This document shows, in pieces, positions 18,019-48,692 of a stretch of 64,000 nucleotides of DNA. The translations under genes were made by a program, and so were the position numbers. The notes below the pieces were generated by a model. The model did no database searches, was not told the DNA's origin, and saw nothing but the letters and a program-made list of their open reading frames with translations. The stretch lies in NCBI RefSeq assembly GCF_003258365.1, contig NZ_QHKM01000001.1, positions 1,798,001-1,862,000 on the forward strand. The letters run 5' to 3'. Every line of letters begins with the position of its first letter. Within the stretch, counting starts at the first letter, position 1. The DNA comes from Hymenobacter edaphi (GTDB lineage Bacteria; Bacteroidota; Bacteroidia; Cytophagales; Hymenobacteraceae).

Positions 18019-18123
18019 CGTCATGTCGAGCTGGTCGAGACGTCTCGCTCGATAATAATTCCAATCGTCAGGTTACTTCTCAAACGTCAGCACGCGAGAT
18101 GTCTCGACCAGCTCGACATGACG
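18019..18123. repeat. Family A-related palindromic repeat, GTCGAG variant (A')
   Basis: CGTCATGTCGAGCTGGTCGA at the left end pairs with TCGACCAGCTCGACATGACG at the right. It has the same frame as family A but a different arm sequence (TGTCGAG instead of TGCTGAG), and both arms changed together. Confidence 0.75.
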
Positions 18124-18161
18124 ACCTAACGAATCGGACGATCCGCCAAAACTTAAACTGT

Positions 18162-20639: not shown

Positions 20640-20651
20640 GAACCCAACCTG

Positions 20652-23600
20652 ATGAATCAGCACCTCCCTCCTTCCAACAGCCGCGAAAATCGTCCGGCTC
20701 CCCCTCTCCATTTTCGGAGAGGGGGCCGGGGGGTGAGGCGCACCGTCTGGGCGGCCGTGACGGCGGCTCTGCTACTGCCAGCGGCCACCTACGCTCAGGA
20801 AGCCAGCGTGTACTTCTTCCCCGGCGTGTCGCACCCGCCGCAGGTGTATCCCGGCCCCGAGGCTGATGGCTGGCAGATTCCGCAGATTACCGAGCTGAAC
20901 CGCGACCCGGCCCGGGCCACGGCCTACTCCTTTGCCTCGGAAGCCGCCGCGCTGGAAGGCAACCGCGACAAATCCGGCCGGCTGATGTCGCTTAACGGCA
21001 GCTGGGACTTCAGCTTCGCCGCGAAGCCGAGTGACGCGCCCAAGGATTTTCAGCAGAGCCGCGTGCAGGGCTGGAAGCAGCTGGCGGTGCCCGCCAACTG
21101 GGAGATGAACGGCTACGACCTGCCCATCTACAAATCGGCCAAGTACCCGTTTCGGCCCGTCACGCCGCCCTTCGTGCCCCAGGATTACAACGGCGTGGGC
21201 TCTTATCAGCGCAGCTTTTCGGTGCCGGCCGACTGGAAGAGCATGAACGTGACGCTGCACTTCGGCGGGGTCAGCTCGGCGTTTAAGGTGTGGGTGAACG
21301 GCAAGTTTCTGGGCTACGCCGAGGACAGCTGCCTGCCCTCGGAGTTCAACGTGACGCCGTATTTGCAAGCGGGCGAAAACACGGTGTCGGTGCAGGTGAT
21401 GCGCTGGTCGGATGGCTCCTACCTCGAAGATCAGGACCACTGGCGCCTCAGCGGCATCTACCGCGAAGTGCTGCTGCTGGCCGAGCCCAAAATGCGCCTG
21501 GCCGACTTCCACTGGCAGGCCAAGCTCGACAAGCAGTACCAGGACGCGACGCTCAGCATTCGGCCCCGCCTGGAAAACTTCACCGGCGACAACGACCTGA
21601 AGGGCTACAACGTCCGGGCTCAGCTGTACGACAAAGCGGGCAAGCCGGTGCTGGCCCAGCCCCTGCAGCGCACGGCCGAAAGCATCATCAACGAGCCCTA
21701 CCCGCGCCTCGACAACGCCAAGTTCGGGCTGCTGGAAGCCAAGATTCCGGCGCCGCTGAAGTGGAGCGACGAGACGCCGAACCTCTACACGCTGGTCTTG
21801 ACCTTGACCGATAAGACGGGCGCGGTGCTGGAAAGCAAGAGCTGCAAGGTGGGCTTCCGCAGCGTGGAATTCGACAAGCAGACGGGCAAGCTGCTCATCA
21901 ACGGCAAGCTCACGTACCTGTACGGCGTCAACCGCCACGACCACCACCCGACCAAGGGCATGGCCGTGTCGCGCGAAGACATTCGCAAGGACGTCATGAC
22001 GCTCAAGCAGTTCAATTTCAACTGCATCCGCACCTCGCACTATCCCAACGACCCGTACTTCTACGACCTCTGCGACGAGTACGGCATCCTGGTGATGGAC
22101 GAGGCCAACCTGGAAACCCACGGCCTCGGCGCCAAGCTCAGCAACGACCCGGCCTGGACCGCCGCCTACCAGGAGCGCAGCATGCGCATGGCCCTGCGCG
22201 ACAAAAACCACCCCTCCGTGGTGTTCTGGAGCCTGGGCAACGAGTCGGGCCGCGGGCCTAACCACGCCGCCATGGCCGCCTGGCTGCACGATTTCGACAT
22301 CACCCGCCCGCTGCACTACGAGCCGGCCCAGGGCGACCCGCACCTCGACGGCTACATCAGCCCCTCCGACCCGGGCTACCCCAAAAACCACGCCTACCGC
22401 ATCCAGGTGCCCCGCGACCAAGCCTACGTGGACATGGTCAGCCGCATGTACCCGGGCATCTTCACCGCCGAGCTGCTGGCCAATCAGCAAAACGGCGACA
22501 ACCGGCCCATCTTTTTCTGCGAGTACGCCCACTCCATGGGCAACGCCACCGGCAACATCAAGGAGTTCTGGGACGCCTGGCGCAGCACCAAGCGCATCAT
22601 CGGCGGCTGCATCTGGGAGTACCGCGACCAGGGCCTGCTCAAGCGCGACTCGGTGGGCACCGCCTACTACGCCTACGGCGGCGACTTTAAGGAAAAGTAC
22701 TACGACGACTTCACCATCAAAGGCATAGCCGATTCGGAGGGCAATCCGAAACCCGCCCTCTACGAGTGCAAGCGCGTGAATCAGCCGCTGGAAACCACGC
22801 TGGCCGACGCCGGCAAGGCCCTGGTAAAAGTGCAGAACCGCCACGCGTCGAAGTCGGCCGCCGACTACGTGCTGACGCTGACCCTGCGCGAAGACGGCCG
22901 CGTGGTGGCTACCAAGCTGCTGCCGCGCCTGCGCCTCGCCGCCCAGCGTGATACCCTTATCAGCCTGCAGCCCTACCTGCCGAAGCTCAAAGCCGGCGCG
23001 GAGTACCTGGCCACGGTTTCGTTCACCTTGCCGGAGGCGACGCAATGGGCGCCGAAGGGCCACGAAGTAGCCGCCAACCAGCTGGCATTAACCGGTCTGG
23101 CCCAGCCCCAGAAGCCTGCCAAAAGCTTCCCCGCCGTAGCCGTGCGCGACGACGCCAAGGCCTACACCATCAGCGGCAAGGGCTTCACCGTCAGCATCGA
23201 CAAAACCACCGGCGCGCTGACCAGCTACCAGCAGAACGGGGCCGAGCAGCTGGCCGCCCCGCTGCTGCCCCACTTCACCCGCCCGCTCACCGACAACGAC
23301 CGACGCGGCTGGAAAGCCCCCAAGAAACTCAAGCCCTGGTTTGAGGCCCAGCCCAAGCTCGAAAGCCTGACCCTCGACAAGTCCACCGCCGGCCTGGCCG
23401 CCCTCACCAGCACCTACTCGCTCATCGACGCTACCACCAAAGTGCGAGTGACCTACACGTTGAATGGCGACGGGGTGCTCAAAGTCGACTACGCCCTGAC
23501 GCCCGCCGCCGGCCTGCCGAACCTGCCCCGCGTGGGCCTGCGGGGCGGCATCCGGCGCAGCTACGACCAGCTCAGCTACTACGGCCGCGGCCCCTGGGAA

Positions 23601-24092
23601 AACTACCTGGACCGCCGCTACGGCATCGACGCGGGCATCTACAGCCACGCTTTGCCGGGCGCGGCCGATTCCTACGTGGTGCCCCAGGAATTTGGCACCC
23701 GCACCGATATCCGCTGGCTGCAGCTCTCCGACAAGCAGGGCCGCGGCCTGCTGGTGGTGGCCGATTCGCTGCTGAGCATGACCGCCCTGCCCTTCACCGA
23801 GCAGAACATCCAGTCGGCCCGCCACACCAACCGGCTGAAAGACGCCGGCTTCATCAGCCTGAACCTTGACCTGGCCCAGATGGGCGTGGGCGGCAACACC
23901 AGCTGGGACGACCAGGCCGCCCCGATTCCGCAGTACCAGCTCCCGTCGAAGCCCTACCGCTACAGCTTCTACCTGCTGCCGGTGGATGGCAAGAAAAAGC
24001 CCGGTGAGCTGGCCCGCCGCATCCAGTTTCCCACCCCGACGGCCCGTCAGAACACTACGCCGCCCGCGGGAGCAACCGGCTCCCTGCGCTGA
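20652..24092 (+). CDS. LacZ-type GH2 beta-galactosidase with repeat-derived N-terminus
   Basis: This is a full-length LacZ-like enzyme, with sugar-binding, Ig-like, TIM-barrel and C-terminal bgal_small_N domains; the last includes SYYGRGPWENYLDR. The acid/base Glu is in WSLGNESGRG and the nucleophile Glu in FFCEYAHSMGN. The histidine block RTSHYPNDPYFYDLCDEYG is intact. Two starts are possible. The ATG at 20652 runs through a family B repeat and gives a long basic leader. The in-frame GTG at 20733, formed by the end of that repeat, gives a textbook signal peptide (VRRTVWAAVTAALLLPAATYA). I list the ATG, but the GTG may be the real start. Length is 1146 or 1119 residues. Confidence 0.9.
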   Translation: MNQHLPPSNSRENRPAPPLHFRRGGRGVRRTVWAAVTAALLLPAATYAQEASVYFFPGVSHPPQVYPGPEADGWQIPQITELNRDPARATAYSFASEAAALEGNRDKSGRLMSLNGSWDFSFAAKPSDAPKDFQQSRVQGWKQLAVPANWEMNGYDLPIYKSAKYPFRPVTPPFVPQDYNGVGSYQRSFSVPADWKSMNVTLHFGGVSSAFKVWVNGKFLGYAEDSCLPSEFNVTPYLQAGENTVSVQVMRWSDGSYLEDQDHWRLSGIYREVLLLAEPKMRLADFHWQAKLDKQYQDATLSIRPRLENFTGDNDLKGYNVRAQLYDKAGKPVLAQPLQRTAESIINEPYPRLDNAKFGLLEAKIPAPLKWSDETPNLYTLVLTLTDKTGAVLESKSCKVGFRSVEFDKQTGKLLINGKLTYLYGVNRHDHHPTKGMAVSREDIRKDVMTLKQFNFNCIRTSHYPNDPYFYDLCDEYGILVMDEANLETHGLGAKLSNDPAWTAAYQERSMRMALRDKNHPSVVFWSLGNESGRGPNHAAMAAWLHDFDITRPLHYEPAQGDPHLDGYISPSDPGYPKNHAYRIQVPRDQAYVDMVSRMYPGIFTAELLANQQNGDNRPIFFCEYAHSMGNATGNIKEFWDAWRSTKRIIGGCIWEYRDQGLLKRDSVGTAYYAYGGDFKEKYYDDFTIKGIADSEGNPKPALYECKRVNQPLETTLADAGKALVKVQNRHASKSAADYVLTLTLREDGRVVATKLLPRLRLAAQRDTLISLQPYLPKLKAGAEYLATVSFTLPEATQWAPKGHEVAANQLALTGLAQPQKPAKSFPAVAVRDDAKAYTISGKGFTVSIDKTTGALTSYQQNGAEQLAAPLLPHFTRPLTDNDRRGWKAPKKLKPWFEAQPKLESLTLDKSTAGLAALTSTYSLIDATTKVRVTYTLNGDGVLKVDYALTPAAGLPNLPRVGLRGGIRRSYDQLSYYGRGPWENYLDRRYGIDAGIYSHALPGAADSYVVPQEFGTRTDIRWLQLSDKQGRGLLVVADSLLSMTALPFTEQNIQSARHTNRLKDAGFISLNLDLAQMGVGGNTSWDDQAAPIPQYQLPSKPYRYSFYLLPVDGKKKPGELARRIQFPTPTARQNTTPPAGATGSLR
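20696..20740 (+). repeat. Family B start-site hairpin, copy 1 (in frame)
   Basis: CCCCCTCTCC, a short loop and GGAGAGGGGG form a 10-bp stem, followed by CCGGGGGGTGAGGCG. The final GTG (20733) is in frame with the GH2 signal peptide. Confidence 0.85.
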
Positions 24093-24191: not shown

Positions 24192-25388
24192 ATGTCCGCC
24201 GAACACATTCACCTGAAAGGCATTACCTGGAACCACAGCCGCGGCTTCGTGCCGATGGCCGCCACCGCGCAACGCTTTTCGGAGCTGCACCCGCACGTGA
24301 GCATCAGCTGGGAAAAGCGCAGCCTGCAGCAGTTTGCCGACGAGTCGATTCAGCAGCTGGCCGAGCGGTTCGACCTGCTGGTCATCGACCACCCCTGGGC
24401 CGGCTTTGCCGCCCGCACCGGCTCTATTCTGCCCCTCGACGAGCACCTGCCCGCCGCCTTTCTGGCCGATCAGGAGGCCAACACCGTGGGCCACTCCTAC
24501 GAAAGCTACAGCTTCAATGGCCACCAGTGGGCCCTGCCCATCGACGCGGCCACGCCCGTAGCCGCCAGCCGCCCCGATCTGCTGGCCAAGCACGGCCTCG
24601 CCGTTCCGCAGACGTTTGACGAGCTGCTCCGGCTGGCCGACCGCGGCTTGGTCGCCTTTGCGCTGATTCCCATCGACACGCTGATGAGCTTCTACATGTT
24701 CTGCTGCTCGCTGGGCGAAGACCCCTGCCAGCGCGAGGACGAAGTGGTGAGCGAAGCCGTGGGCGTGCAGGCGCTGCAAATGTTCCGCGAGCTGGCCCGC
24801 AAAGTCGACCCGGCCTGCTTCCAGCGCAACCCCATTCAGGTGTACGAGGCCATGACGCAGACCGATAAGCTGGCCTACTGCCCCTTCGCCTACGGCTACA
24901 GCAACTACGCCCGGCGCGGCTACGCCCGCCAGCCGCTGCACTTCCACGACTTGGTGGCGCTGCAGCCCGGCGGCACGCCGATGCGCAGCACCCTCGGCGG
25001 CACCGGCCTGGCTATTTCGGCCAAGTGCCAGCACGTGGAAGTAGCCGCTCAGTACGCCGAGTTCGTGGCCTCGCCCAGCTGCCAGCAGACGCTGTACTTC
25101 GACAACGGCGGGCAGCCCGGTCACCTCGCCGCCTGGCAGGCCGAGCACCCCAACCAGCAGAGCCACGACTACTTCCGCGCCACGCTGCCCGCGCTGCAGC
25201 GCGCCTTTCTGCGCCCGCGCTACCACGGCCACATGTTTTTCCAGGACCACGCCGGCGAGCCGGTGCGCCAATACCTGCTGCACGGCGGCAACGAACGGGC
25301 TTTGCTGCAGGAGTTGAACCAGCTCTACCGCGAGTCGCGGCAGATGCAGGCGGCAGAACCGCAAGCCGCAGCGACTGCAGCTGAATAA
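24192..25388 (+). CDS. Solute-binding-protein-like protein without signal peptide (SBP-like 1)
   Basis: The fold signature is that of an ABC-type extracellular solute-binding protein. The N-terminal strand and helix IHLKGITWNHSRGFVPM is followed by a sampling region FDLLVIDHPWAGFAARTG, a hinge region SYNFxG-like (YSFNGHQWALPIDAATPVA) and C-terminal helices such as AAQYAEFVASPSCQQTLYF. Unlike true SBPs it has no signal peptide and no lipobox: the protein starts MSAEHIHLKG and goes straight into the first strand. No ABC permease or ATPase gene is nearby. It is followed by a CoA-transferase gene. From memory, similar proteins occur beside CaiB-type genes in other phyla, but I know of no proven function. 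A cytoplasmic ligand-binding or enzymatic role is inferred. Confidence 0.7.
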   Translation: MSAEHIHLKGITWNHSRGFVPMAATAQRFSELHPHVSISWEKRSLQQFADESIQQLAERFDLLVIDHPWAGFAARTGSILPLDEHLPAAFLADQEANTVGHSYESYSFNGHQWALPIDAATPVAASRPDLLAKHGLAVPQTFDELLRLADRGLVAFALIPIDTLMSFYMFCCSLGEDPCQREDEVVSEAVGVQALQMFRELARKVDPACFQRNPIQVYEAMTQTDKLAYCPFAYGYSNYARRGYARQPLHFHDLVALQPGGTPMRSTLGGTGLAISAKCQHVEVAAQYAEFVASPSCQQTLYFDNGGQPGHLAAWQAEHPNQQSHDYFRATLPALQRAFLRPRYHGHMFFQDHAGEPVRQYLLHGGNERALLQELNQLYRESRQMQAAEPQAAATAAE

Positions 25389-25396
25389 AACTAGAA

Positions 25397-25576
25397 CGTC
25401 ATGCTGAGCTTGTCGAAGCATCTCTGCCGCTTCGCGTGCACAACTCCCAAAGAGCCTCATGCTGAGCCGATCCAAACGGCGGTAATACCTCCCTAGCCCA
25501 GGGTTTAAACCCTGGGCTATCGGTAGGGTAGCTGCCCCAACGAAGCGGGAGAGATGCTTCGCGGAGCCCAGCATGA
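25397..25576. repeat. Family A palindromic repeat, copy 2, split by another palindrome
   Basis: The left arm (CGTCATGCTGAGC) starts at 25397 and the right arm ends with GCATGAC at 25577. Between them sit a second partial left arm and a perfect 26-bp palindrome (25494-25519), suggesting one repeat was inserted in another. Confidence 0.75.
25494..25519. repeat. Perfect 26-bp palindrome
   Basis: TAGCCCAGGGTTT is followed at once by its exact reverse complement, with no loop. It is nested inside a family A element between SBP-like 1 and CoA-transferase 1. Confidence 0.85.
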
Positions 25577-25599
25577 CACAACTAACACGCAACACACCC

Positions 25600-26757
25600 A
25601 TGTCACTTCCCCTGGAAGGCCTGCTCGTTATCGAGTTCAGCCAGTTTCTGGCCGCGCCCTCGGCGGGGCTGCGCCTGGCCGACCTCGGCGCGCGCGTCAT
25701 CAAGATTGAGCGGCCGGGCGCGGGCGAGGCGGGCCGGCAGATTGCCATCAAGAACCTGTTCGTCGACGGCTCAAGCCTGGTGTTTCACACCATCAACCGC
25801 CACAAGGAGTCCTACGCGGCCGACCTGAAAAACCCCGAGGACCTGGCCCGCGTGCGGCAGCTGCTGGCCCGAGCCGACGTGATGACCCACAACTTCAGGC
25901 CGGGCATCATGGAGAAAATCGGCCTCGATTACGATTCCGTCCGCGCCCTGAACCCGCGCATCGTCTACGGCGTGGTGACGGGCTACGGCCCGACGGGCCC
26001 GTGGGCCACCAAGCCGGGACAGGATTTGCTGGTGCAGTCGATGTCGGGCCTGACCTGGCTGAGCGGCACCGCCGCGGACGGTCCCACGCCCTTCGGTATT
26101 GCCGTGGCCGACATCATCTGCGGCTCGCACTTCGCCCAGGGGCTGCTGGCCGGCCTGCTCAAGCGCGGCAAGACGGGCCGGAGCGTGCTGGTGGAAGCCA
26201 GTTTGCTGGAATCGGTGCTCGACATGCAGTTTGAGCTGCTGACCACCCACCTCAACGACGGCGGGCAGCTGCCCCGGCGCGGGGCCGTGCGCGGCACCGC
26301 CCACCCCTACCTGAGCGCGCCCTACGGCATCTACCCCACCCAGGATGGGCACCTGGCCCTGGCCATGGGCAACCTGCCCCAACTCGACGAAACCCTGAAC
26401 GGCGGCATCCTCGCAGCCTACCCGGAGCCGGCCTCCTGGTTTGAGCACCGCGACGCCATTGCCGAAAAGCTGACCGCCGCCCTGCGCGAGAAGCCCACCA
26501 AAGACTGGCTGGTCACGCTGGAGCCGCTGGGCATCTGGTGCGCCGAAGTGCTGAACTACCAGCAGGCCACCGCCAGCCCCGGCTTCCAGGCCCTGGGTAT
26601 GCAGCAGCAGGTGACTTTGCCCGACGGCCAGCAGCTGGCCACCACCCGCTGCCCCATCCGCATCGACGGCCGGAAGCTGTACTCGCCCCAGGCCGCCCCG
26701 CGCCCCGGCCAGCACACGGCCGAAATCGACCGGGAATTTCATCTGACAAACTCTTAA
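25600..26757 (+). CDS. Class III (CaiB/BaiF) CoA-transferase 1
   Basis: This cytoplasmic enzyme moves CoA between carboxylic acids. The family opening [20 protein letters not shown] and the [14 protein letters not shown] block are clear, as is the [14 protein letters not shown] region. The catalytic Asp is predicted at residue 171 in [11 protein letters not shown]. The C-terminus has the usual TRCPIRIDG. The ATG at 25600 is preferred because the in-frame ATG at 25573 is part of the family A repeat (GCATGAC). The length of 385 residues is typical. A close paralogue lies downstream. The substrate is unknown; mesaconate-, citramalate- or carnitine-type acids are only family precedents. Confidence 0.9.
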
Positions 26758-26818
26758 TCCAACCGAATAGAAACGTCAACGAACTGCCCGCGCCAAGCCC
26801 CAGTCCTCAGAATCGTCC

Positions 26819-26862
26819 GGCTCCCCCTCTCCTTTTCGGAGAGGGGGCCGGGGGGTGAGGCG
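26819..26862 (+). repeat. Family B start-site hairpin, copy 3
   Basis: The same hairpin ends in GTGAGGCG 27 bases before the ATG of CoA-transferase 2. Confidence 0.85.
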
Positions 26863-26889
26863 CAACGCCCGACGTTCAAAACTACGCCT

Positions 26890-28053
26890 ATGAAGCCGCT
26901 CGAAGACTACTTGGTGGTTGATTTCAGCCAGTTCCTCTCCGGCCCCTCGGCGGGCCTGCGCCTGGCCGATTTCGGGGCGCGGGTCATCAAGATCGAGCGG
27001 CCAGAGACGGGCGACATCTGCCGGCACCTGTACACCTCCAACGTGATTATGAACGGGGAGTCGTCGGTGTTTCACGCCATCAACCGCAACAAGGAAAGCT
27101 TCGCCGCCGACCTCAAAAGCGAAGCCGACCGCGCCCAGGTGTGGGAGCTGGTGCGCCGCGCCGACGTGGTGCTGCACAACTACCGCCCCGGCGTGATGGA
27201 GCGCCTGGGCTTCGACTACGCCTCGGTGCGGGCCCAGAACCCCACGGTGGTCTACGGCGAAATTTCCGGCTACGGTCCCGACGGCCCCTGGCGCGACAAG
27301 CCCGGCCAGGACTTGCTGCTGCAGTCGGTGTCGGGCCTGACCTGGCTGAGCGGCAACGACGGCAGCGGCCCGGTGCCGATGGGCCTCTCCATCGTGGATA
27401 TGCTGGCCGGGGCGCATTTAGCGCAAGGCTTGCTAGCCTGCCTGGTGCGGCGCAGCCTGCGCGGCGAAGGCGGGCTGGTACAGGTGAGCATGCTCGAATC
27501 GGCCATCGACTTCCAGTTCGAGACGCTGACCACCTTCTTCAACGACGGCGGGCAGCTGCCCCAACGGACCCGGCACAACAGCGCCCACGCCTACCTCGGC
27601 GCGCCCTACGGCATCTACCAGACCCAAAACGGCTACCTGGCCCTGGCCATGGGCTCCATTCCGAAGCTGGGCGAGCTGCTCGGCTGCCCGGCGCTGCTGA
27701 ACTACCCCGAACCCAAGCAGGCCTTCGAGCAGCGCGACGAAATCAAGGCCACGCTGGCCGCGCACCTGCGCACCAATACCACCGAGGCCTGGCTGGCCGT
27801 GCTGGAGCCAGCCGATATCTGGTGCGCTAACGTGCTGCGCTGGGACGAGCTACTGCAGCACGAAGGCTTCCGCGGGCTGGAAATGACGCAGACCGTGCGG
27901 CAGCTCGACGGCTACCAGTACCAAACCACCCGCTGCCCCATTCGCCTCGACGGGGAGCGGCTGACTTCGCCCGTTGGCTCGCCCCAGCTGGGCCAGGACA
28001 ACGCCCGCCTGCAACAGGAATTCATGAACGTCAACGCCGTGCAGCATGACTGA
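26890..28053 (+). CDS. Class III (CaiB/BaiF) CoA-transferase 2
   Basis: This is a paralogue of the preceding CoA-transferase with the same layout: [48 protein letters not shown], and a catalytic Asp predicted at residue 170 in [10 protein letters not shown]. It is 387 residues long. Differences cluster in the substrate-side segment around residues 40-60. The pair may form a heteromer or handle two acids. Its stop overlaps the start of the next gene by 8 bases, so the genes at 26890, 28046 and 29295 form one tight operon. Confidence 0.9.
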
Positions 28054-29302
28054 GCCGCAGCCTTTCCGCGTGGCCGTGCGCAAGTTCGCGCCCTTCGAAG
28101 CCCACATGCAGAAGCTGTGGGCCGCCTACTGCGCCCACTCCGGCTGCACCTTGCCCGCCGAGTTCGTGCCGCTGGACCTGCACCCGCTGCACCAGAGCCT
28201 GCTGACGGATAAGGGCCTGCAGAACGGCGCCTGGGACCTGGCCCACATCAACACCGACTGGCTGCCCGAAGCCCAGGCCGCCGGCGCCCTGCTCGACCTC
28301 ACGCCACTCATCCAGCAGAACCCGCCGGCCGACTTTCCGGATGGCTGGAGCCCGTCGTTGCTGGGGATGCAGGAATTTGGCGACACCACGCTCGGCCTGC
28401 CCTTCCACGACGGGCCCGAGTGCCTGATTTACCGCAAGGATCTGTTCGACAGCCCCGCCGAGCAAGCCGCGTTTCAGCAGCTGCACGGTCGGCCGCTGCT
28501 GCCGCCCGCTACCTGGGGCGAGCTGCAGCAGGTGGCCCGCTTTTTCCACCGCCCCGAGCAGAACCTGTACGGCTTCGTGGCCGCCGGCTACCCCGACGGG
28601 CACAACACCGTCTTCGACTTCTGCCTGCACCTGTGGACCCGCGGCGGACAGCTGCACGACGGGCAGGGCCGGCTGCAAATCGACTCCGAGGCGGCGCGGG
28701 CGGGCCTGAGCTTCTACCGCCAGCTGCTGCGCGACCCGGCGGCCATTCACCCGCAGTCGATGCAGTACGAGTCGGTGCAGGCGGGGCAGGCATTTGCCCG
28801 GGGCGAGGCGGCGCTGATGATCAACTGGTTCGGCTTCGCGGCCGTGTGCGAGGTGGACGACGCCTGCCCGGTGCGCGGCAAGGTCGACATTACCGCCGTG
28901 CCCCGGGGCGAAAACACCGTGGGCAGCTCGGCTTCGCTGAACGTGTACTGGCTCTACGCCATTGGCGCGGGCAGCCGGCACCAGCAGGTAGCCTACGACT
29001 TCATCCGCTTCGCCGTCAGTCCCGAAAACGACAAGCGCCTGACCCTGGAGGGCGGCATCGGCTGCCGGCTCTCCACCTGGCACGACGCGGACATCAATGC
29101 CCGCGTGCCCTACTACCACAAGCTGGCCGAGCTGCACGAAAAGGCCGAAACGCTGCCGCAGAAAGCCAACTGGGCGCAGCTGGCCGCGGTCATCGACGAG
29201 GTGGTGCTGCGGGCCCTCAACACCGAAGAGCCGGTAGCCGAGCTGCTGGCGGCCGCGCAACTGAAAATCAACGCCCTGGATAACCCTCCCCACCATGTTT
29301 AG
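28046..29302 (+). CDS. Solute-binding-protein-like protein without signal peptide (SBP-like 2)
   Basis: This is a second solute-binding-protein-fold product, only distantly like the one at 24192. Family features are the [20 protein letters not shown] segment, [20 protein letters not shown] (the usual lobe-crossing strand and kinked helix), [14 protein letters not shown], and [14 protein letters not shown] followed by VPRGEN. It begins [20 protein letters not shown], so there is no export signal. It overlaps the CoA-transferase by 8 bases and the next oxidoreductase by 8 bases. This coupling argues that it works with cytoplasmic enzymes rather than as a transporter subunit. The role is unknown. 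Length is 418 residues. Confidence 0.72.
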
Positions 29303-30416
29303 CATCGACGGCACCCCGATTCCCTATAAGCCGGCGCGGCCCGCCCGGCCCCTGCCCATCGTCATCGTCGGGGCTGGCGGCATCGTGGGCGACGCCCATT
29401 TGCCGGCCTACCGCAAGGCCGGTTTCGAAGTCGTGGGCATCACCAACCGCACCCGCGCCCGCGCCGAAAAGCTGGCCGCCGAGTGGAACATCCCGCACGT
29501 GTACCACTCGGTGGCCGAAGCCGTGCAGCACGCCCCCGCCGATGCGGTGTACGACGTGACCATCATGCCCGAGCAGTTCGTGGCCACCTTGGAGCAGCTG
29601 CCCGACGGCGCGGCGGTGCTCATCCAGAAGCCGATGGGCGACTATTTCTGGCAGAGCCAGGAAATTCTGGAAGTGTGCCGGCGCAAAAACCTGGTGGCGG
29701 CCATCAACTGCCAGCTGCGCTTCGCCCCTTACGTGGCCGCCGCCCGGCACATGCTCAGCCAGGGCCTCATCGGCGAGCTGTACGACCTGGAAGTGCGCGT
29801 GACCCTGGAGACGCCCTGGGAGCTGTTTCCGCACGTGATGGTGCACCCGCGCCTGGAAATCCAGTACCACAGCATCCACTACATCGACCTGATTCGCAGC
29901 TTCCTCGGGGAGCCCGGCCGCGTCATGGCCAAGACGCTCCGGCACCCGGCCAAGGCGCTGTCCTCGTCGCGCTCCACCATTTTGTTCGACTACGGCGACA
30001 CCCTGCACGCCGTCATCAACACCAACCACGACCACTCGTTCGGGCCGCACAACCAGGAAAGCTTCATCAAGTGGGAAGGCACGAAAGGCGCCATCAAAGC
30101 CCGCATGGGCCTGCTGATGGACTACCCCCACGGCGTGCCCGACAAGTTCGAGTACTGCCTGCTGCGCGAGAACGAAGCCCCGACCTGGCACACCGTGGAG
30201 CTGGAAGGCTCCTGGTTTCCCGACGCTTTCATGGGCACGATGGGCAGCCTGATGCAGTTCAAAAACGGCGAAATTGATGTCTTGCCCACCAGCGTGGAGG
30301 ATGTCATCAAAACCATGGCCGTAGTGGAAGCCGCCTACGCGTCGAGCGACGGGACGCCCAGTGCTCCGGGCGAAGCCGCACCCGCATCTGCCGCCACTAC
30401 CAACGAAAAGCGGTAG
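29295..30416 (+). CDS. Gfo/Idh/MocA family oxidoreductase 1
   Basis: This is a cytoplasmic NAD(P)-dependent sugar dehydrogenase or aldose-like reductase. The Rossmann motif is GAGGIVGDAH. The usual EKP is QKP here (VLIQKPMGDYF), and it keeps the Lys. The substrate-domain histidine is in HSIHYIDLIR. The C-terminal tail is Ala/Pro-rich. Its start overlaps the SBP-like 2 stop, and it is the last gene of the CoA-transferase operon before a hairpin at 30507-30548. Length is 373 residues. The substrate could be a sugar, inositol or sugar acid; the module context suggests it feeds or drains the CoA-dependent steps. Confidence 0.85.
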   Translation: MFSIDGTPIPYKPARPARPLPIVIVGAGGIVGDAHLPAYRKAGFEVVGITNRTRARAEKLAAEWNIPHVYHSVAEAVQHAPADAVYDVTIMPEQFVATLEQLPDGAAVLIQKPMGDYFWQSQEILEVCRRKNLVAAINCQLRFAPYVAAARHMLSQGLIGELYDLEVRVTLETPWELFPHVMVHPRLEIQYHSIHYIDLIRSFLGEPGRVMAKTLRHPAKALSSSRSTILFDYGDTLHAVINTNHDHSFGPHNQESFIKWEGTKGAIKARMGLLMDYPHGVPDKFEYCLLRENEAPTWHTVELEGSWFPDAFMGTMGSLMQFKNGEIDVLPTSVEDVIKTMAVVEAAYASSDGTPSAPGEAAPASAATTNEKR

Positions 30417-30506
30417 AGAGCAGGAGACTTGCCCGGCTTTACTGCTGCATCTTACCTGCTCAATAATCCTTCAAAACCACTCAGCGACTCCCCGCCAACT
30501 CTAGTC

Positions 30507-30548
30507 GCAGCGCAGTCAAAGCGGCCCGTGCCGCTTTGACTGCGCTGC
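30507..30548. terminator. Perfect 18-bp hairpin after the CoA-transferase operon
   Basis: GCAGCGCAGTCAAAGCGG (30507-30524) and its exact complement (30531-30548) enclose a 6-base loop. It lacks a T-run but is very stable and lies just after the last gene of the operon. Confidence 0.55.
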
Positions 30549-30555
30549 TCTGTCA

Positions 30556-30609
30556 GGCTCCCCCTCTCCCCTTGGAGAGGGGGCCGGCCCCGGCGGGGTA
30601 TCGTGAGGC
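30556..30609 (+). repeat. Family B start-site hairpin, copy 4 (longer tail)
   Basis: CCCCCTCTCC and GGAGAGGGGG are present. The tail carries extra bases (CCGGCCCCGGCGGGG) before GTGAGGC and lies directly before the MaoC-like ATG at 30618. Confidence 0.75.
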
Positions 30610-30617
30610 CACCACCT

Positions 30618-31073
30618 ATGTACTTCAAATCCACCTTCTTCGAAGACTACACCCTCGGCGACAAGCGCGTGACGCTGGGCCGCACGCTCACCGAAACCGA
30701 CTTCGTGGTCCACGCCGGGCACACGGGCGACTTTTTCCCCCACCACCTCGACGCGGAGTGGTGCAAAACCCAGCCCTTCGGCCAGCGCATTGCCCACGGC
30801 ACGATGGTGTTCAGCATCGGCATCGGGCTGACGGCCTCGGAAATCAACCCCGAAGCCTTTTCCAAGGGCTACGACCGGCTGCGCTTTATCAAGCCCGTGT
30901 TCATCGGCAACACCATCCGCTCGGAAGTCACGATTTCGGAGAAGACGGAGGGCAAGAAGCCCGGCTACGGCCAGGTAACCGAGCACGTGGAAATCTTCAA
31001 CGAGCACGGCGAAGTGGTGCTGGCCTGCGACCATCTGCTGGTGGTGAAGCTGCGGCCGCAGAATCCCGCTTGA
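30618..31073 (+). CDS. MaoC-like hot-dog-fold hydratase/dehydratase
   Basis: This is a cytoplasmic enoyl-CoA-hydratase-type protein of the MaoC family. The conserved block [20 protein letters not shown] has the catalytic Asp and His arrangement of (R)-specific hydratases. [15 protein letters not shown] and [19 protein letters not shown] are the standard following blocks. Length is 151 residues from the ATG at 30618, chosen because an upstream in-frame GTG is part of repeat B. It fits chemistry on a CoA thioester made by the neighbouring CoA-transferases, such as a hydration or dehydration like that of mesaconyl-CoA hydratase. The true substrate is unknown. Confidence 0.88.
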
Positions 31074-31074
31074 A

Positions 31075-31155
31075 CGTCATGCTGAGCTTGTCGAAGCATC
31101 TCTACCGAACGATTTAACGAAGCGGTAGAGATGCTTCGACAAGCTCAGCATGACG
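31075..31155. repeat. Family A palindromic repeat, copy 3
   Basis: This is a nearly perfect copy: the left arm CGTCATGCTGAGCTTGTCGA is matched by TCGACAAGCTCAGCATGACG. It fills the gap between the MaoC-like and permease genes. Confidence 0.88.
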
Positions 31156-31201
31156 TTCAAAATCATCCTCCGACCAACCCCACCCAAACCCGCTCCGCCC
31201 G

Positions 31202-32506
31202 ATGGCCCTTGCCCCCGCTCCCACCCCGCCGCCGGTTGCCACCGGCAGCCCTGCCAGTGCCCGCACCTACCTGCTTCCGTTCATCCTGGTGGTGGGCGTG
31301 TTCTTCCTCTGGGGCATGGCGCACAGCCTGGATTCCATCCTGATTCCGCACCTGCAGAAGGCCTGCCAGCTCAACAACCGGCAGTCGACGCTGGTGGACA
31401 CGGCCGTGTTCCTGGCCTACTTCCTGATGGCTATTCCGGCCGGGATGCTGCTCAAGCGCCTGGGCTACAAAACGACCATCATCCTGGGCCTGCTGGCTTT
31501 TGCGGGCGGCGCGTTCCTGTTCATCCCCGCCGCCGATGCCCGCTCCTACGGCATGTTCCTGACCGCGCTGTTCATCATCGGCTGCGGGCTGACCACGCTG
31601 GAAACCGCCGCCAACCCCTACGCCGCCGTGCTCGGGCCGCCCGAGGGCAGCACCAGCCGGCTGAACCTGGCCGCCTCGTTCAACGGCCTGGCCGTGTTCG
31701 TGGCCCCGATTATCGGCGCCAACATGATTCTCTCGGGCACGGAGTACAGCAAGGCCCAGCTGGCGGCCATGCCCACGGCCGAGCGCATTGCCTACCTCAA
31801 CCACGAAGCCGCCGCCGTGAAGCTGCCCTACCTGGTGCTGGGCGCGGTGCTGGTGGCCGTGGCGGTGCTCTTCTTTTTCAGCAAGCTGCCCGAGGTAAAG
31901 GCCGCCGAAGCTGAGCCCTCGCAGGGCGGCGGCTTCTTCGCGGTGCTGAAGCACCGGCACCTGACCTGGGCCGTGGTGGCGCAGTTTTTCTACGTCGGGG
32001 CGCAGGTCTGCGTGACGAGCTTCTTTATCCGCATGGCCAAGCAGGGCGCGGGCGTCGATGAGAAAACCGCCGGCTACTACCTGGCCGTGTACGGGCTGCT
32101 GTTTATGATCGGGCGCTTCGCCGGCACCGCCCTGCTCAAGTACGTGGCCTCCCATCGGCTCTTGTCGATTTACGCCGTCATTGCCGTGGCCTTGTGCGCG
32201 GTGGCCGTGTTCGGCGACGGGGCCTACGTCATCTACGCGCTGGGCGGCATCGGCTTCTTCATGAGCATCATGTTCCCCACCATCTTCGCCCTGGGCATTG
32301 CCGGCCTCGGCGACGACACCAAACCCGGCTCGTCCTGGCTGGTGATGTCCATCGTGGGCGGGGCCATTCTGCCCTACCTGATGGGCACGCTCATCGATAT
32401 GCGCGGCGACAATATCCAGATCGGCTACCTCATCCCGCTGGGCTGCTTCCTGGTGATTCTGCTCTTCGGCCAGTACGGCTACCGCATCAACAAGAAGCTG
32501 GTGTAA
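31202..32506 (+). CDS. FucP-like sugar:proton symporter (MFS)
   Basis: This is an inner-membrane major facilitator of the fucose:H+ symporter family, with 12 predicted membrane segments. The opening YLLPFILVVGVFFLWGMAHS, the LIPHLQKA block and the cytoplasmic loop LKRLGYKTTI are typical of FucP and related glucose/galactose/N-acetylglucosamine carriers. The acidic and amide residues that are functional in E. coli FucP have likely counterparts in LTTLETAANPY (Glu) and LNLAASFNGLA (Asn). Length is 434 residues. The substrate may be a deoxyhexose such as rhamnose or fucose released by the PUL, or a product used by the CoA-transferase module just upstream. Confidence 0.9.
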   Translation: MALAPAPTPPPVATGSPASARTYLLPFILVVGVFFLWGMAHSLDSILIPHLQKACQLNNRQSTLVDTAVFLAYFLMAIPAGMLLKRLGYKTTIILGLLAFAGGAFLFIPAADARSYGMFLTALFIIGCGLTTLETAANPYAAVLGPPEGSTSRLNLAASFNGLAVFVAPIIGANMILSGTEYSKAQLAAMPTAERIAYLNHEAAAVKLPYLVLGAVLVAVAVLFFFSKLPEVKAAEAEPSQGGGFFAVLKHRHLTWAVVAQFFYVGAQVCVTSFFIRMAKQGAGVDEKTAGYYLAVYGLLFMIGRFAGTALLKYVASHRLLSIYAVIAVALCAVAVFGDGAYVIYALGGIGFFMSIMFPTIFALGIAGLGDDTKPGSSWLVMSIVGGAILPYLMGTLIDMRGDNIQIGYLIPLGCFLVILLFGQYGYRINKKLV

Positions 32507-32526: not shown

Positions 32527-32618
32527 CGTCATGCTGAGCTTGTCGAAGCATCTCTACCGCTTCGTTGAATAGTATCTGACGAAGCGGGAGAGATGCTTCG
32601 ACTTCGCTCAGCATGACG
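32527..32618. repeat. Family A palindromic repeat, copy 4
   Basis: Left arm CGTCATGCTGAGCTTGTCGA; right arm AGAGATGCTTCGACTTCGC then TCAGCATGACG. It lies between the permease and the GH106 gene. Confidence 0.88.
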
Positions 32619-32642: not shown

Positions 32643-35600
32643 ATGCAAAACCGGCGCAACCTTCCCCTGTCCCTGCTGCTCCTGACGCTGCCCGCCCTGA
32701 GCTGGCTGCCGTCGACGTCAGTCTGGGCGCAGTCGGCGCCGGCCACTGCGGCCACTACCGCGACGGACCTGCAGGCCGCCTTCCAGAACCCGCCCGAAGC
32801 GGCCCGGCCCTGGGTTATCTGGTACTGGATGAACGCGGCCGTGACGCCCGAGGGCCTCACCGCCGACCTGGAGGCCATGCAGCAGGCCGGCATCGGCGGG
32901 GCCTTTCTGATGCCCATCCGCGGCGCGGGCGACAAGCCGCTCATCGACCCGCCGGCCCAGCAGCTCTCGCCCCGCTGGTGGCAGATGGTGCGCCACGCCA
33001 TGACCGAGGCCGACCGCCTCGGCCTGAAGCTGGCCATGCACGTGAGCGACGGATTCGCGCTGGCCGGCGGCCCTTGGATTACGCCCGAGCTGGCCATGCA
33101 GAAGGTGGTTTCCAGCGAAACGCGCCTGACCGGCGGCCGCAAGCAAACCATCCAGCTGCCCCAGCCGGCGGCCGTGAAGGGCTACTACCGCGACATTGCC
33201 GTGTACGCCTACCCCACGCCCACCGGCGGCGGGGTATCGACGTACACCACCAAGCCCACCGTCACCAGCAGCGCCGCCGAGGGCAAGCCCGAACGGCTGA
33301 CCGTGGCCGGCAACAAGGACGGCTTCAAGCTCTCGGAGCCGGGCTGGATTCAGTATGCCTTTGAGAAGCCCTTCACCGTCCGCAGCCTGCGCATCCGCTC
33401 CAACGGCTATAACTACCAGGCCAACCGCCTCATCGTCGAAGCCAGCCAGGACGGGCAGACCTTCCGGCCCGTGCTGCGCCTGACGCCGCCGCGCAGCGGC
33501 TGGCAGGACAGCAGCGCCGTCACCCACGCGCTGCCGACCACCACCGCCCGCTTTTTTCGCTTCCGCTACGACCCGGCCGGCTCCGAGCCGGGCGGCGAGG
33601 ACCTGGACGCGGCCAAGTGGAAACCCTCGCTGAAAGTCTCGGAAATCCGGCTGTCGGCGGAGGCGCGCATCAACCAGTACGAGGGCAAAAACGGGGAAGT
33701 CTGGCGCGTGAGTCCGCGCAGCACCGCCCAGCAGCTGCCCGACTCCCTGTGCGTGCCGCTGGGCAAGGTGCTCAACCTCACCGATAAGCTCAATCCCGAT
33801 GGCCGCCTGAACTGGACGCCCCCGGCCGGGCGCTGGACGATTCTGCGCGTGGGCCACACCGCCACTGGCTACACCAACTACACCGGCGGCGGCGCATTGG
33901 GCCTGGAGTGCGACAAGTTCAACCCCGCGGCCGTGAAGCTGCAGTTCGACAGCTGGTTTGGCGAGGCGCTGCGCCAGGGCGGGCCGGAGCTGGCCGGGCG
34001 GGTGCTCAAGACGCTGCACATCGACAGCTGGGAGTGCGGCTCCCAGAACTGGTCGAGCAATTTCGCCGCCGAGTTCCGGCAGCGCCGGGGCTACGACTTG
34101 CTACCCTATCTGCCGGTGCTGGCCGGCGTACCCCTGCAGAGCGCCGAGGTATCGGAGCGGGTGCTGTTCGATTTGCGCCAGACCATTGCCGAGCTGATCG
34201 GCGACAAGTTTTACGCCACCCTGGCCGCCGAAGCCCGGGCCAAGGGCGTGACCATTTCGGCCGAGGCGGTGGCCCCCACGATGGTCAGCGACGGACTGCT
34301 GCACTACCAGTACGCCGACGCGCCGATGGGCGAGTTCTGGCTGCGCAGCCCCACCCACGACAAGCCCAACGACATGCTCGACGCCATTTCGGGGGCGCAT
34401 ATCTACGGCAAGAACATCGTGCAGGCGGAGGCCTTTACCGAGCTGAAAATGGCCTGGGACGAGCACCCGGCCATGCTCAAAGCGGTGCAGGACCGCAACT
34501 ACGCCCTGGGCGTCAACCGGCTGGTGTACCACGTCTTCGCCCACAACCCCTGGCTGGACCGAAAACCGGGCATGACCCTGAACGGCGTGGGCCTCTATTT
34601 CCAGCGCGACCAGACCTGGTGGCGCCCCGGCCGCGCCTGGGTCGACTACGCCCGCCGCTGCCAGGCCCTGCTGCAGCTGGGCCGCCCGGTAGTCGACGTG
34701 GCCGTGTTCAACGGCGAGGAAACCCCGCGACGCGCCGTGCTGCCCGAGCGCCTGACCCGCACGCTGCCCGGCATCGTGGGGCCGGCGAAGGTAGCCAGCG
34801 AGAAAAAGCGGCTGGCCAACGCCGGCTCCCCGATGCGCGAAATGCCCGAAAAGGTGTCGGCCACGGCCAATAGCTTCACCGCCGGTATGCTGGTGGACCC
34901 GCTCCGCGGCTACGCCTACGACTCGTTCAACCCCGACGCGCTGCTGCGCCTGGCCACGGTGCGCAACGGCCGCATCGAGCTGCCCGGCGGCGCCAGCTAC
35001 GGTCTGCTCGTCGTGCCCGGCGTCACCTCGCTCTGGCCCGACAGCACCTCCATGACGCCGGCCGTGGCCCGCCGCCTGGGCGAGCTGAAGCAGGCCGGCG
35101 CCACCATCCTGCTCGACCGGCAGCCCGACCGCAGCCCCGAGCTGCGCAACTTCCCGCAAGCCGACCAGCAGGTGCAGCAACTCACGGCCCGGCTAAGCAC
35201 CGCTGCGGACGCACAAGCATCCGCGGCCGCGGCTCCGGCCGGCGTCGCGGCCACCAGCGGCGGCCGCATCCTGCGCGGCCCCTACACCGCCGATTCCTTC
35301 GAGCCGCTGGGCCTGGCACCCGATGTGACGGCCCGCTACGCCAGCGGCCAGCGCGCCCGCGGCCTGGCCTGGACGCACCGCACCGCCGAGCAGTTCGATA
35401 TCTACTTCATTGCCAACCAGCTCGACTCGGTGCAGACCATCGATTTGTCGCTGCGCGTGGCCGGGCGGCAGCCGGAGCTGTGGGACGCAGTGACGGGCGA
35501 AATCCGACCGGCGCGGGACTGGCAGATCGACAATGGCCGCACCCGGCTGCCGCTGCGTTTGGAGCCCAGCGGCTCGGTGTTCGTGGTGCTGCGCCAGCCC

Positions 35601-36161
35601 ACTACGCAAACGGCTGTCCATTCAGGCTCGAACTGGCTGACGACCACGCCCGCCCAGTCGCTCAGCGGCCCCTGGCAGGTGCAGTTCGACCCGAAAGCCG
35701 GCGGCCCGGCCCAGCCCGTGGCGTTTGCGCAGCTCACCGATTGGAGCCAGCACCCCGACGCGGCCGTCCGCCACTACTCCGGCACGGCCGACTGCACCCA
35801 GACCTTCCGCTGGAAGGCGAAAAAACGGCCCGGCCAGCGCGTGTACCTGGAACTCGGGCAGGTAAACAACCTGGCCGAAGTGGAGCTGAACGGCCGGAGC
35901 TGCGGCACGGCCTGGACGGCCCCCTACCGCCTCGACATTACCGACGCCGTGCGCAAGGGCGACAATCAGCTGCGCATTCGGGTAACCAACACCTGGGCCA
36001 ACCGCCTCATCGGCGACGCGGCCTTGCCCCCGGAGCAGCGCCGCACCAGCCTGACCACGGCGCCCGCGCCGGCCGCTACCAAGCCGCTGCTGCCGGCGGG
36101 GCTGCTGGGGCCGGTGGGCATCAGCACGGCTACTGAATCGAGTCCCAAAACCTCAAAATAG
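32643..36161 (+). CDS. GH106 alpha-L-rhamnosidase
   Basis: This is a large secreted rhamnosidase of family GH106, which attacks rhamnose in rhamnogalacturonan I/II and other glycans. The signal peptide spans residues 1-30, ending near SVWA. The family opening is clear: PPEAARPWVIWYWMNAAVTP, then LEAMQQAGIGGAFLMPIRG and WWQMVRHAMTEADRLGLKL. The TIM barrel includes HIDSWECGSQNWSSNF with likely active-site acidic residues. A C-terminal jelly-roll carries TWANRLIGDAALPPEQRRTS. At 1172 residues it is full length. It is bordered by family A repeats on both sides, so it may be its own transcription unit. Confidence 0.88.
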   Translation: MQNRRNLPLSLLLLTLPALSWLPSTSVWAQSAPATAATTATDLQAAFQNPPEAARPWVIWYWMNAAVTPEGLTADLEAMQQAGIGGAFLMPIRGAGDKPLIDPPAQQLSPRWWQMVRHAMTEADRLGLKLAMHVSDGFALAGGPWITPELAMQKVVSSETRLTGGRKQTIQLPQPAAVKGYYRDIAVYAYPTPTGGGVSTYTTKPTVTSSAAEGKPERLTVAGNKDGFKLSEPGWIQYAFEKPFTVRSLRIRSNGYNYQANRLIVEASQDGQTFRPVLRLTPPRSGWQDSSAVTHALPTTTARFFRFRYDPAGSEPGGEDLDAAKWKPSLKVSEIRLSAEARINQYEGKNGEVWRVSPRSTAQQLPDSLCVPLGKVLNLTDKLNPDGRLNWTPPAGRWTILRVGHTATGYTNYTGGGALGLECDKFNPAAVKLQFDSWFGEALRQGGPELAGRVLKTLHIDSWECGSQNWSSNFAAEFRQRRGYDLLPYLPVLAGVPLQSAEVSERVLFDLRQTIAELIGDKFYATLAAEARAKGVTISAEAVAPTMVSDGLLHYQYADAPMGEFWLRSPTHDKPNDMLDAISGAHIYGKNIVQAEAFTELKMAWDEHPAMLKAVQDRNYALGVNRLVYHVFAHNPWLDRKPGMTLNGVGLYFQRDQTWWRPGRAWVDYARRCQALLQLGRPVVDVAVFNGEETPRRAVLPERLTRTLPGIVGPAKVASEKKRLANAGSPMREMPEKVSATANSFTAGMLVDPLRGYAYDSFNPDALLRLATVRNGRIELPGGASYGLLVVPGVTSLWPDSTSMTPAVARRLGELKQAGATILLDRQPDRSPELRNFPQADQQVQQLTARLSTAADAQASAAAAPAGVAATSGGRILRGPYTADSFEPLGLAPDVTARYASGQRARGLAWTHRTAEQFDIYFIANQLDSVQTIDLSLRVAGRQPELWDAVTGEIRPARDWQIDNGRTRLPLRLEPSGSVFVVLRQPTTQTAVHSGSNWLTTTPAQSLSGPWQVQFDPKAGGPAQPVAFAQLTDWSQHPDAAVRHYSGTADCTQTFRWKAKKRPGQRVYLELGQVNNLAEVELNGRSCGTAWTAPYRLDITDAVRKGDNQLRIRVTNTWANRLIGDAALPPEQRRTSLTTAPAPAATKPLLPAGLLGPVGISTATESSPKTSK

Positions 36162-48570: not shown

Positions 48571-48692
48571 GTAGCGCGGGCTTTAGCCCGCGTCCGCCAA
48601 GAGCCGCTTGCGCCCCTTGGAGTTGGTGTTGAGGGTGTGGCGGCCAGGTGCCCCGACTGGTTCCGTTCTGCCGGACGCGGGCTAAAGCCCTA
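48571..48692. repeat. Inverted pair of CGCGGGCTTTAGCCCGCG-type palindromes
   Basis: GTAGCGCGGGCTTTAGCCCG (from 48571) and its reverse-oriented relative GGACGCGGGCTAAAGCCCTA (48673-48692) form an inverted pair about 80 bases apart. The second copy supplies the stop codon (TAG, 48690-48692) of the mutarotase gene. Confidence 0.8.

Follow-up and report, generated by a model that had tools for sequence, protein, structure and literature searches.

Gene content and organization of the locus

The stretch of DNA analyzed here (the window) comprises 64,000 nucleotides of Hymenobacter edaphi (GCF_003258365.1, contig NZ_QHKM01000001.1, positions 1,798,001 to 1,862,000 of the forward strand). It contains seven plus-strand genes in the order SBP1-CaiB1-CaiB2-SBP2-Gfo-MaoC-FucP, in which two proteins resembling the solute-binding proteins (SBPs) of ATP-binding cassette (ABC) transporters are encoded among coenzyme A (CoA) transferases, an oxidoreductase, a hydratase-type protein and a symporter (Table 1). 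Coordinates are window positions unless an L-numbered locus is named; G numbers denote genomes, with G000 for the strain's own. The open reading frame (ORF) map and searches of Pfam and NCBIfam bore out the seven genes, families and coordinates given in a preliminary description of the window, as well as the 8-base overlaps of SBP2 with CaiB2 (28046-28053) and Gfo (29295-29302). SBP1 and CaiB1 are separated by 184 bases. Both SBP-like proteins gave Pfam SBP_bac_1/SBP_bac_8 matches that exceed the cut-offs, and neither was reported by any NCBIfam model. Full-length Pfam CoA_transf_3 matches were obtained for CaiB1 and CaiB2, and the domain search upheld the identities of the Gfo, MaoC and major facilitator superfamily (MFS) proteins. 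FucP passed the cut-off of the fucP equivalog model TIGR00885 (371 versus 280 bits) and missed that of PRK10133; its substrate specificity is read from sequence only.

Related loci were collected by a search of genome contigs, and all counts out of 80 refer to the best 80 of 142 SBP1 relatives, which come from Hymenobacter, Pedobacter, Olivibacter, Sphingobacterium, Flavobacterium and others. The complete seven-gene order was kept in 73 of these 80 loci. This single gene order rules out chance clustering, and the seven genes are one operon-like module. The coupling of transporter-less SBP-like proteins to CoA-transferase and hydratase genes is firm.

Table 1. Genes of the module and of the surrounding glycan region (window coordinates).
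Feature	Coordinates	Strand	Description
SBP1	24192..25388	+	398 aa, solute-binding-protein-like without signal, CUT1 sugar-SBP fold (predicted); constant CaiB partner in Bacteroidota loci
CaiB1	25573..26757	+	class III CoA-transferase, Asp180 kept
CaiB2	26890..28053	+	class III CoA-transferase, 56% identical to CaiB1, Asp170 kept
SBP2	28046..29302	+	418 aa, another signal-less SBP-like protein, overlapping each neighbor by 8 bases
Gfo/Idh/MocA	29295..30416	+	sugar-dehydrogenase-type oxidoreductase
MaoC	30603..31073	+	hydratase/dehydratase type; retains the GDFFPHH motif; PDB 4ffu is a close match
FucP	31202..32506	+	FucP-type MFS symporter; RhaT-type in some relatives
Two glycoside hydrolase family 2 (GH2) genes	18099..24092	+	beta-galactosidase-type, upstream; adjoining the module in most Hymenobacter loci, with one gene alone in many Pedobacter loci
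GH106 gene	32643..36161	+	alpha-L-rhamnosidase-type, next gene downstream; module neighbor in part of the loci
DUF5703 protein	39937-42387		816 aa, same glycan region
GH141-type protein	51891..53807	-	insertion domain matched; same glycan region

Export signals, predicted folds and ABC transporter genes

In the window, the reading frames reach upstream of the called starts, as far as the preceding stop, by only 22 residues for SBP1 and 6 residues for SBP2, so that neither protein can start with a signal peptide and neither a signal peptide nor a lipobox is possible for either of them. The claim that both lack an export signal therefore holds for the window. The AlphaFold models (mean pLDDT of 92.6 each) start their first strand at residue 6-7. 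The most hydrophobic 12-mer within the first 45 residues scored at most 1.48 in 47 SBP1 rows and 1.27 in 47 SBP2 rows, sets from which rows at least 90% identical or with stops were dropped, in which one SBP2 start (L028) was trimmed and from which signal-like long SBP1 frames are absent, some of them dropped as near-duplicates; five transporter SBPs serving as control scored 1.8-3.1 in the same measure. All 80 SBP1 genes have a start no more than 14 residues away from the conserved first strand, and 17 of the 80 loci have an additional start further upstream. None of the 77 scored SBP2 genes (of 79) has a signal-like longer start. The exclusion of a signal for SBP1 covers the window and 72 of the 80 loci, not all of them. 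The proposed conserved signal-less subfamily thus stands for SBP2 and for most SBP1 loci; it does not extend to eight SBP1 loci with an alternative signal-like start, which are weighed below.

Hidden Markov model searches and structure prediction of the two SBPs had been proposed in the preliminary description. In addition to the Pfam matches, Foldseek placed both predicted models among CUT1 sugar-binding proteins (MalE3, trehalose/maltose-binding protein (TMBP), LpqY, SmoF and Arad_9887), with TM about 0.7-0.86. In an alignment of SBP1 with TMBP, D66 and R341 fall near places of putative sugar contacts. The SBP1 alignment of 47 rows contains 43 invariant columns. Binding of a sugar acid by SBP1 would be the simplest reading of these features.

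Seven queries for CUT1 and ribose-type permeases and ATPases found no match in the window and 20 kb on each side (104 kb, the range in which ribose-type permeases were sought), and all four control loci were matched by the same queries. The own genome holds five BPD_transp_1 matches at E<=1e-5, the nearest on the same contig 304 kb upstream; the contig ends about 94 kb downstream. The earlier statement that no ABC permease or ATPase lies nearby was thereby confirmed, and an ordinary ABC importer with a missed signal was rejected, as there is neither upstream room nor a sugar-type ABC gene in this region.

Conservation in Bacteroidota

Seven loci depart from the complete order: L007, L016, L024 and L069 are short and are read as cut by contig ends, and L051, L057 and L065 are variants with RhaT upstream. 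The SBP1 and CaiB1 ORFs overlap in 57 of 79 loci, by 4 bases in 50. In 11 other Hymenobacteraceae loci the two CaiB genes are joined in a single open frame (792-835 codons), an arrangement that would fit a heterodimer; some of the linkers contain a Met, so that separate starts are possible. The family Asp, whose position (Asp180 in CaiB1) we take to be the catalytic one of class III CoA-transferases, is kept in all 165 aligned CaiB ORFs (167 rows, the window's two being entered twice). The GDxxPxH motif, with its presumably catalytic Asp and His, is kept in 79 of 79 MaoC proteins.

Repeated sequences occupy some of the gaps of the seven-gene operon. A 26-base repeat, often with inverted partners, has 13 copies in the window at up to 3 mismatches (0 expected), including sites at 25400-25425, 31078-31152 and 32530-32555, and a second, GC-rich repeat has 3 copies. 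In some relatives, sequence of similar appearance belongs to the open frame and is translated as the linker between CaiB1 and CaiB2.

Among 296 sampled Bacteroidota genomes, SBP1 was detected in 16 and SBP2 in 10 (E<=1e-40), all 10 being among the 16. Four genomes without SBP2 at this threshold (G033, G150, G214 and G269) encode a lactonase-type amidohydrolase beside CaiB2; in G033 the gene lies between CaiB2 and Gfo, and the other three carry its relatives. Among the loci compared, this subfamily (>50% identity) occurs only in these four genomes. Another amidohydrolase, which shares the domain family and 25-30% identity, is found in 28 Flavobacterium-type loci with SBP2 and upstream in the own genome.

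Other arrangements of SBP1 were also observed. In G286 (L115:2976-11044) it occurs without CaiB in the 20 kb read, beside an FGGY kinase, a TIM-barrel isomerase, a fusion of an aldolase with a short-chain dehydrogenase/reductase (SDR) and a transporter-like gene, and SBP2 lies about 60 kb away on the same contig; from gene order and Pfam domains this kinase-isomerase-aldolase cluster is read as putatively of the rhamnose type. At L114:9937-16680 and L120:7221-12889, SBP1-CaiB1-CaiB2 is accompanied by a crotonase-type enoyl-CoA hydratase (ECH) and an aldehyde dehydrogenase, and no Gfo, MaoC or SBP2 is present in the 20 kb read.

Relatives outside Bacteroidota

From the 155 places of a plasmid survey, the analysis took 16 annotated regions that carry the SBP1 family (two of them, Rufibacter and Persicobacter, from Bacteroidota); regions without annotation and one distant ordinary SBP were left out, and the gene tables are incomplete. 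CaiB is the next listed gene in 12 of the 16 regions and lies within 5 kb in 15. SBP1 relatives were found near CaiB in Alpha- and Betaproteobacteria and in Streptomyces, and an SBP2 relative in a haloarchaeon. Repeated co-occurrence with CaiB and MaoC genes, which the preliminary description had named as support, is borne out in several phyla, with MaoC or ECH as the partner type, by these regions and by the Bacteroidota gene order. The accompanying idea that a periplasmic fold has been reused together with CoA-thioester chemistry is well supported as a genetic coupling, with the exception of a Microvirga region that is discussed below. The plasmid records label SBP1 relatives as components that are extracellular or belong to ABC transporters, so that transport is predicted where the genes suggest none.

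In Labrenzia, Pararhizobium and Roseateles, CaiB-SBP1 adjoins an L-fucose operon with Gfo- and MaoC-type genes, which in Labrenzia match those of the window at 45% and 67%, respectively. Variovorax, Pseudosulfitobacter and two Sinorhizobium clusters combine an SDR, an aldose epimerase, CaiB, SBP1 and a crotonase-type ECH, and the first two additionally hold an FAH-family protein of 384-398 aa. The haloarchaeon Halostagnicola encodes SBP2, MaoC, Gfo, an AMP-binding protein, CaiB, a mutarotase, an amidohydrolase and an alpha-L-fucosidase. AMP-binding CoA-ligase-type genes adjoin SBP1 in Methylobacterium and SBP2 in Halostagnicola. On a Streptomyces plasmid (L173:8986-19032), SBP1, a 400-aa FAH-family protein, CaiB, an MFS protein, MaoC and an NADP aldehyde dehydrogenase lie between transposases; this cluster is possibly a pentonate version of the route proposed below.

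Pathway context and the dehydration step

Homologues of all four functions of the non-phosphorylative L-fucose pathway (sugar dehydrogenase, lactonase, 2-keto-3-deoxy-L-fuconate (KDF) dehydrogenase and 2,4-diketo-3-deoxy-L-fuconate (DKDF) hydrolase) are encoded 37-40 kb upstream of SBP1 in the own genome (L121:3810-7335), as an SDR, an amidohydrolase, an FAH hydrolase and a KDF-dehydrogenase-like SDR. The best model for the hydrolase, 2,4-didehydro-3-deoxy-L-rhamnonate hydrolase, reached 362 bits, under its equivalog cut-off of 500, and the protein was not assigned. As reasoned from stereochemistry, 2,4-didehydro-3-deoxy-L-rhamnonate should be identical from L-fucose and from L-rhamnose. A Flavobacterium cassette divergent from the module encodes an amidohydrolase, an SDR and a zinc-dependent alcohol dehydrogenase in 28 of the 80 loci, and an FAH hydrolase in 24; oxidative 6-deoxyhexose genes also adjoin the module in G214, Labrenzia, Pararhizobium and Roseateles. 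A hydrolase homologue (E<=1e-80) was detected in 13 of the 16 SBP1 carriers versus 37 of the 280 other genomes (Fisher p 8e-9, uncorrected for kinship among genomes that are not independent).

Searches for UxaA, FucD and isomerases covered 53, 53 and 16 chosen genomes, respectively. Of the 16 carriers, a single one, not the own genome, has a fucose isomerase match (PF07881, E<=1e-5), and an isomerase like that of the G286 cluster, presumably of the rhamnose type, is present in 13 of the 16, own genome included; an oxidative route is therefore more needed for L-fucose than for L-rhamnose. The enolase-type L-fuconate dehydratase FucD is present in 3 of the 16 carriers (E<1e-90) and was not found in the own genome at E<=1e-10, where two MR_MLE_C proteins are taken to be other, probable enolase-family enzymes. 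No IlvD/Edd domain was detected in the own genome at E<=1e-10, and the strain may thus lack the usual dihydroxyacid dehydratase; the domain is present in 15 of the 16 carriers, the own genome being the exception. A single UxaA-type (galacturonate-type) protein is encoded in the own genome, beside uxaC on another contig. A flat claim that the genome has no other dehydratase was therefore dropped, and a galacturonate route was rejected on the basis of this location.

A pectin-derived sugar acid, which had been put forward as a possible substrate, is not supported by the location of uxaA, by the FucP/RhaT transporters or by the oxidative L-fucose/L-rhamnose partner genes. A 6-deoxyhexose product appears more likely than a pectin uronic acid. 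Degradation of the itaconate/mesaconate type was also rejected: matching transferase models stay far below their cut-offs, and no CitE-like lyase was noticed among the neighbor clusters, which were named by eye and without a hidden Markov model test.

Of 53 hydrolase places, 43 were read for neighboring genes. A UxaA-type gene occurs in 12 of these loci, FucD in 6, the SBP1 module in 4 and none of the three in 21; no locus has two of them. The lack of FucD and IlvD/Edd matches, the finding that no hydrolase locus has two of the three types and the kept residues together suggest that CaiB and MaoC may dehydrate the acid via a CoA thioester.

Proposed route

We favor, with a likelihood somewhat short of even, a role of the module in breaking down a 6-deoxyhexose inside the cell, with L-fucose or a near relative as the most likely substrate; CaiB and MaoC would dehydrate the sugar acid as a CoA thioester. 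The substrate, the reaction order, the heterodimer and the roles of the SBPs are inferred. The sugar would enter through FucP and be oxidized at C1 to a lactone by Gfo or by the SDR of the linked cassette, and opening of the lactone would give a 6-deoxy-L-aldonate. A CaiB1-CaiB2 heterodimer would swap CoA between thioesters and the aldonate. Removal of water from the aldonyl-CoA by MaoC, or by a crotonase-type ECH in other genomes, would give the thioester of a 2-keto-3-deoxy acid, and CaiB would then pass CoA to the next aldonate, so that CoA would be only catalytic. Further conversion to pyruvate and lactate would fall to an SDR and the FAH-family hydrolase, whose genes lie 37-40 kb upstream. 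SBP1 might be a cytoplasmic aldonate-binding partner of the transferase, and SBP2 might belong to the lactone/aldonate stage, for which an amidohydrolase is encoded in other genomes. The amidohydrolase beside CaiB2 in the four SBP2-less genomes suggests the lactone, or the product formed from it, as a candidate target of SBP2. The Flavobacterium cassettes and the own genome, which have the other amidohydrolase, and Halostagnicola, which has both SBP2 and an amidohydrolase, speak against a strict exchange.

The module resembles the non-phosphorylative L-fucose/L-rhamnose pathway in the SDR, amidohydrolase, SDR and FAH-family hydrolase homologues, which are present in the own genome and module-linked elsewhere, and differs from it in that no enolase-type FucD was found here and a CaiB pair, MaoC and two SBP-like proteins are added. 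PMC11199699 deals with the SDR step of that pathway. With class III (CaiB/BaiF) CoA-transferases such as formyl-CoA transferase and YfdE, the two CaiB proteins share the full-length family match and the conserved Asp, and the gene pair recalls the two-subunit benzylsuccinate CoA-transferase (9fn0_B among the matches). In contrast to known members, seven NCBIfam models match and none reaches its cut-off, the predicted substrate is a polyhydroxy acid, and the genes are coupled to SBP1. The SBPs of the window share their predicted fold and SBP_bac_1 with CUT1 proteins and, unlike these, have no signal, no sugar-type ABC permease or ATPase nearby and a coupling to CoA enzymes. MaoC matches PDB 4ffu at E 9e-64 over 146 residues including the GDFFPHH motif; this entry, listed only as 'oxidase', is presumably a structural-genomics entry from Sinorhizobium meliloti.

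The module is real, widespread and undescribed as far as open-access literature searches go: no description of a CaiB/MaoC/SBP sugar module was found in the titles and abstract openings searched. If the proposed route is true, sugar acids would be metabolized as CoA thioesters, and a binding-protein fold would have acquired a cytoplasmic role tied to CoA-thioester chemistry. Such chemistry is familiar for fatty, aromatic and dicarboxylic acids, and we know of no case for polyhydroxy acids. The module or its core is present in the tractable strains Flavobacterium johnsoniae CI04 (locus L071) and Sinorhizobium meliloti (pSymB), which makes the proposal directly testable; in CI04 the module adjoins the hydrolase cassette, and pSymB carries a CaiB-SBP1 pair as well as Gfo-MaoC genes.

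Counter-evidence and alternative explanations

Several observations weigh against this route. A longer SBP1 frame with a hydrophobic, signal-like N-terminus exists at eight of the 80 loci, namely six close Flavobacterium loci (L040, L043, L044, L045, L047 and L056), which have a common in-frame upstream stretch with a signal-like hydrophobic segment, and L024 and L075; these stretches are taken as probably non-coding because they are missing from the other 72 loci. G107 and G182 carry an ECH and an aldehyde dehydrogenase, not MaoC and Gfo, beside SBP1-CaiB1-CaiB2, and G107, G154 and G286 carry SBP1 without a hydrolase match. The close Flavobacterium relative G206 (L146:3785-11415) has FucP, Gfo and the cassette and no SBP1, CaiB, SBP2 or MaoC there, a gap that resembles a natural deletion. 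The Microvirga SBP1 region lists no CaiB within 9 kb. Its SBP1 has 4-base overlaps with a UxuA-type dehydratase on one side (a Pfam call, below both NCBIfam cut-offs) and with an SMP-30 lactonase on the other; an aldonate-dehydratase type sits where CaiB often sits. The glycosidases of the window are mostly of rhamnosidase types. The 21 hydrolase loci without any of the three types in the stretch read include that of the own genome, whose module lies beyond the stretch, and a missing neighbor therefore proves little. Moreover, UxaA lies beside a hydrolase gene in five carriers that also have the module (G025, G033, G170, G214 and, by coordinates, G222), and an annotated L-fuconate dehydratase lies beside the module in the Labrenzia, Pararhizobium and Roseateles clusters. 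The module is consequently not a plain replacement of classical dehydratases and may serve another sugar; taken together, the counter-results indicate that the substrate may differ from plain L-fuconate and that the role of the module may not be confined to a single pathway.

This coexistence with a classical dehydratase, seen in carriers and in Alphaproteobacteria, is what would be expected if the module handled a different or modified 6-deoxyhexose (e.g., O-methylated or epimeric) that is unusable by these enzymes and fed it into the same late pathway. Two hydrolase genes in three carriers (G170, G214 and G222) and the glycan region with its GH106, GH78, GH127, GH141 and GH2 types point in the same direction, but no modification-removing gene was recognized among the conserved seven and the transporter is of the ordinary FucP/RhaT type; this explanation is considered unlikely. 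Annotated dehydratases beside the module would also be compatible with epimerization of the sugar acid at C2 via a CoA thioester, without dehydration, by the CoA-transferases and MaoC. Racemases are among the members of the CaiB family, and CaiB2 is matched by alpha-methylacyl-CoA racemase at E 7e-22; however, MaoC, which has its Asp/His motif, and the crotonase partners are members of hydratase/dehydratase families, and the four hydrolase loci with the module have neither FucD nor UxaA. Epimerization appears improbable.

Other explanations concern the SBPs themselves. Cyclohexadienyl dehydratase and thiaminase I are SBP-derived enzymes. That SBPs can become enzymes, a precedent for an SBP fold losing its transport role, is stated in PMC7683729. 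Accordingly, SBP2 might be a lactonase with an SBP fold and SBP1 a catalytic subunit of the CoA step, in line with the invariant columns of SBP1 and with the G033-type amidohydrolase being confined, among the loci compared, to the SBP2-less genomes. The independent exchanges are few, however, the other amidohydrolase and SBP2 occur together as described above, and no catalytic motif was identified in either SBP, which leaves catalytic SBPs a doubtful option, albeit one that could be compatible with CoA-dependent dehydration. Its widest form would be a CoA-thioester sugar-acid route across bacterial phyla and haloarchaea with the SBP fold as cytoplasmic catalytic machinery, SBP1 as an obligatory subunit of the CoA-transferase/dehydratase and SBP2 as an amidohydrolase-exchangeable lactonase; this, too, is held to be rather unlikely. 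Alternatively, SBP1 and SBP2 could have nothing to do with the CoA chemistry, either acting in the cytoplasm as sensors or buffers without catalytic function or persisting as remnants of an ABC importer that has been lost. Their CUT1-like fold and sequence would suit such an origin, as would the ABC importers, equipped with their own SBP, in several related clusters. Yet a working part is suggested by the conservation, with identities of about 60-70% when Hymenobacter is compared with the other Bacteroidota families, and by the 4-base overlap that couples SBP1 to CaiB; no constant membrane partner or regulator accompanies the genes. Little probability is assigned to sensors or relics.

Further features of the surrounding region

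On the Rufibacter plasmid, too, a DUF5703 gene is a neighbor of the module. Residues 232-323 of a 341-residue frame at 48690-49715 on the minus strand, which overlaps a GH78-like gene, form a RhaM-type L-rhamnose mutarotase domain; the called start of this frame is probably misplaced.

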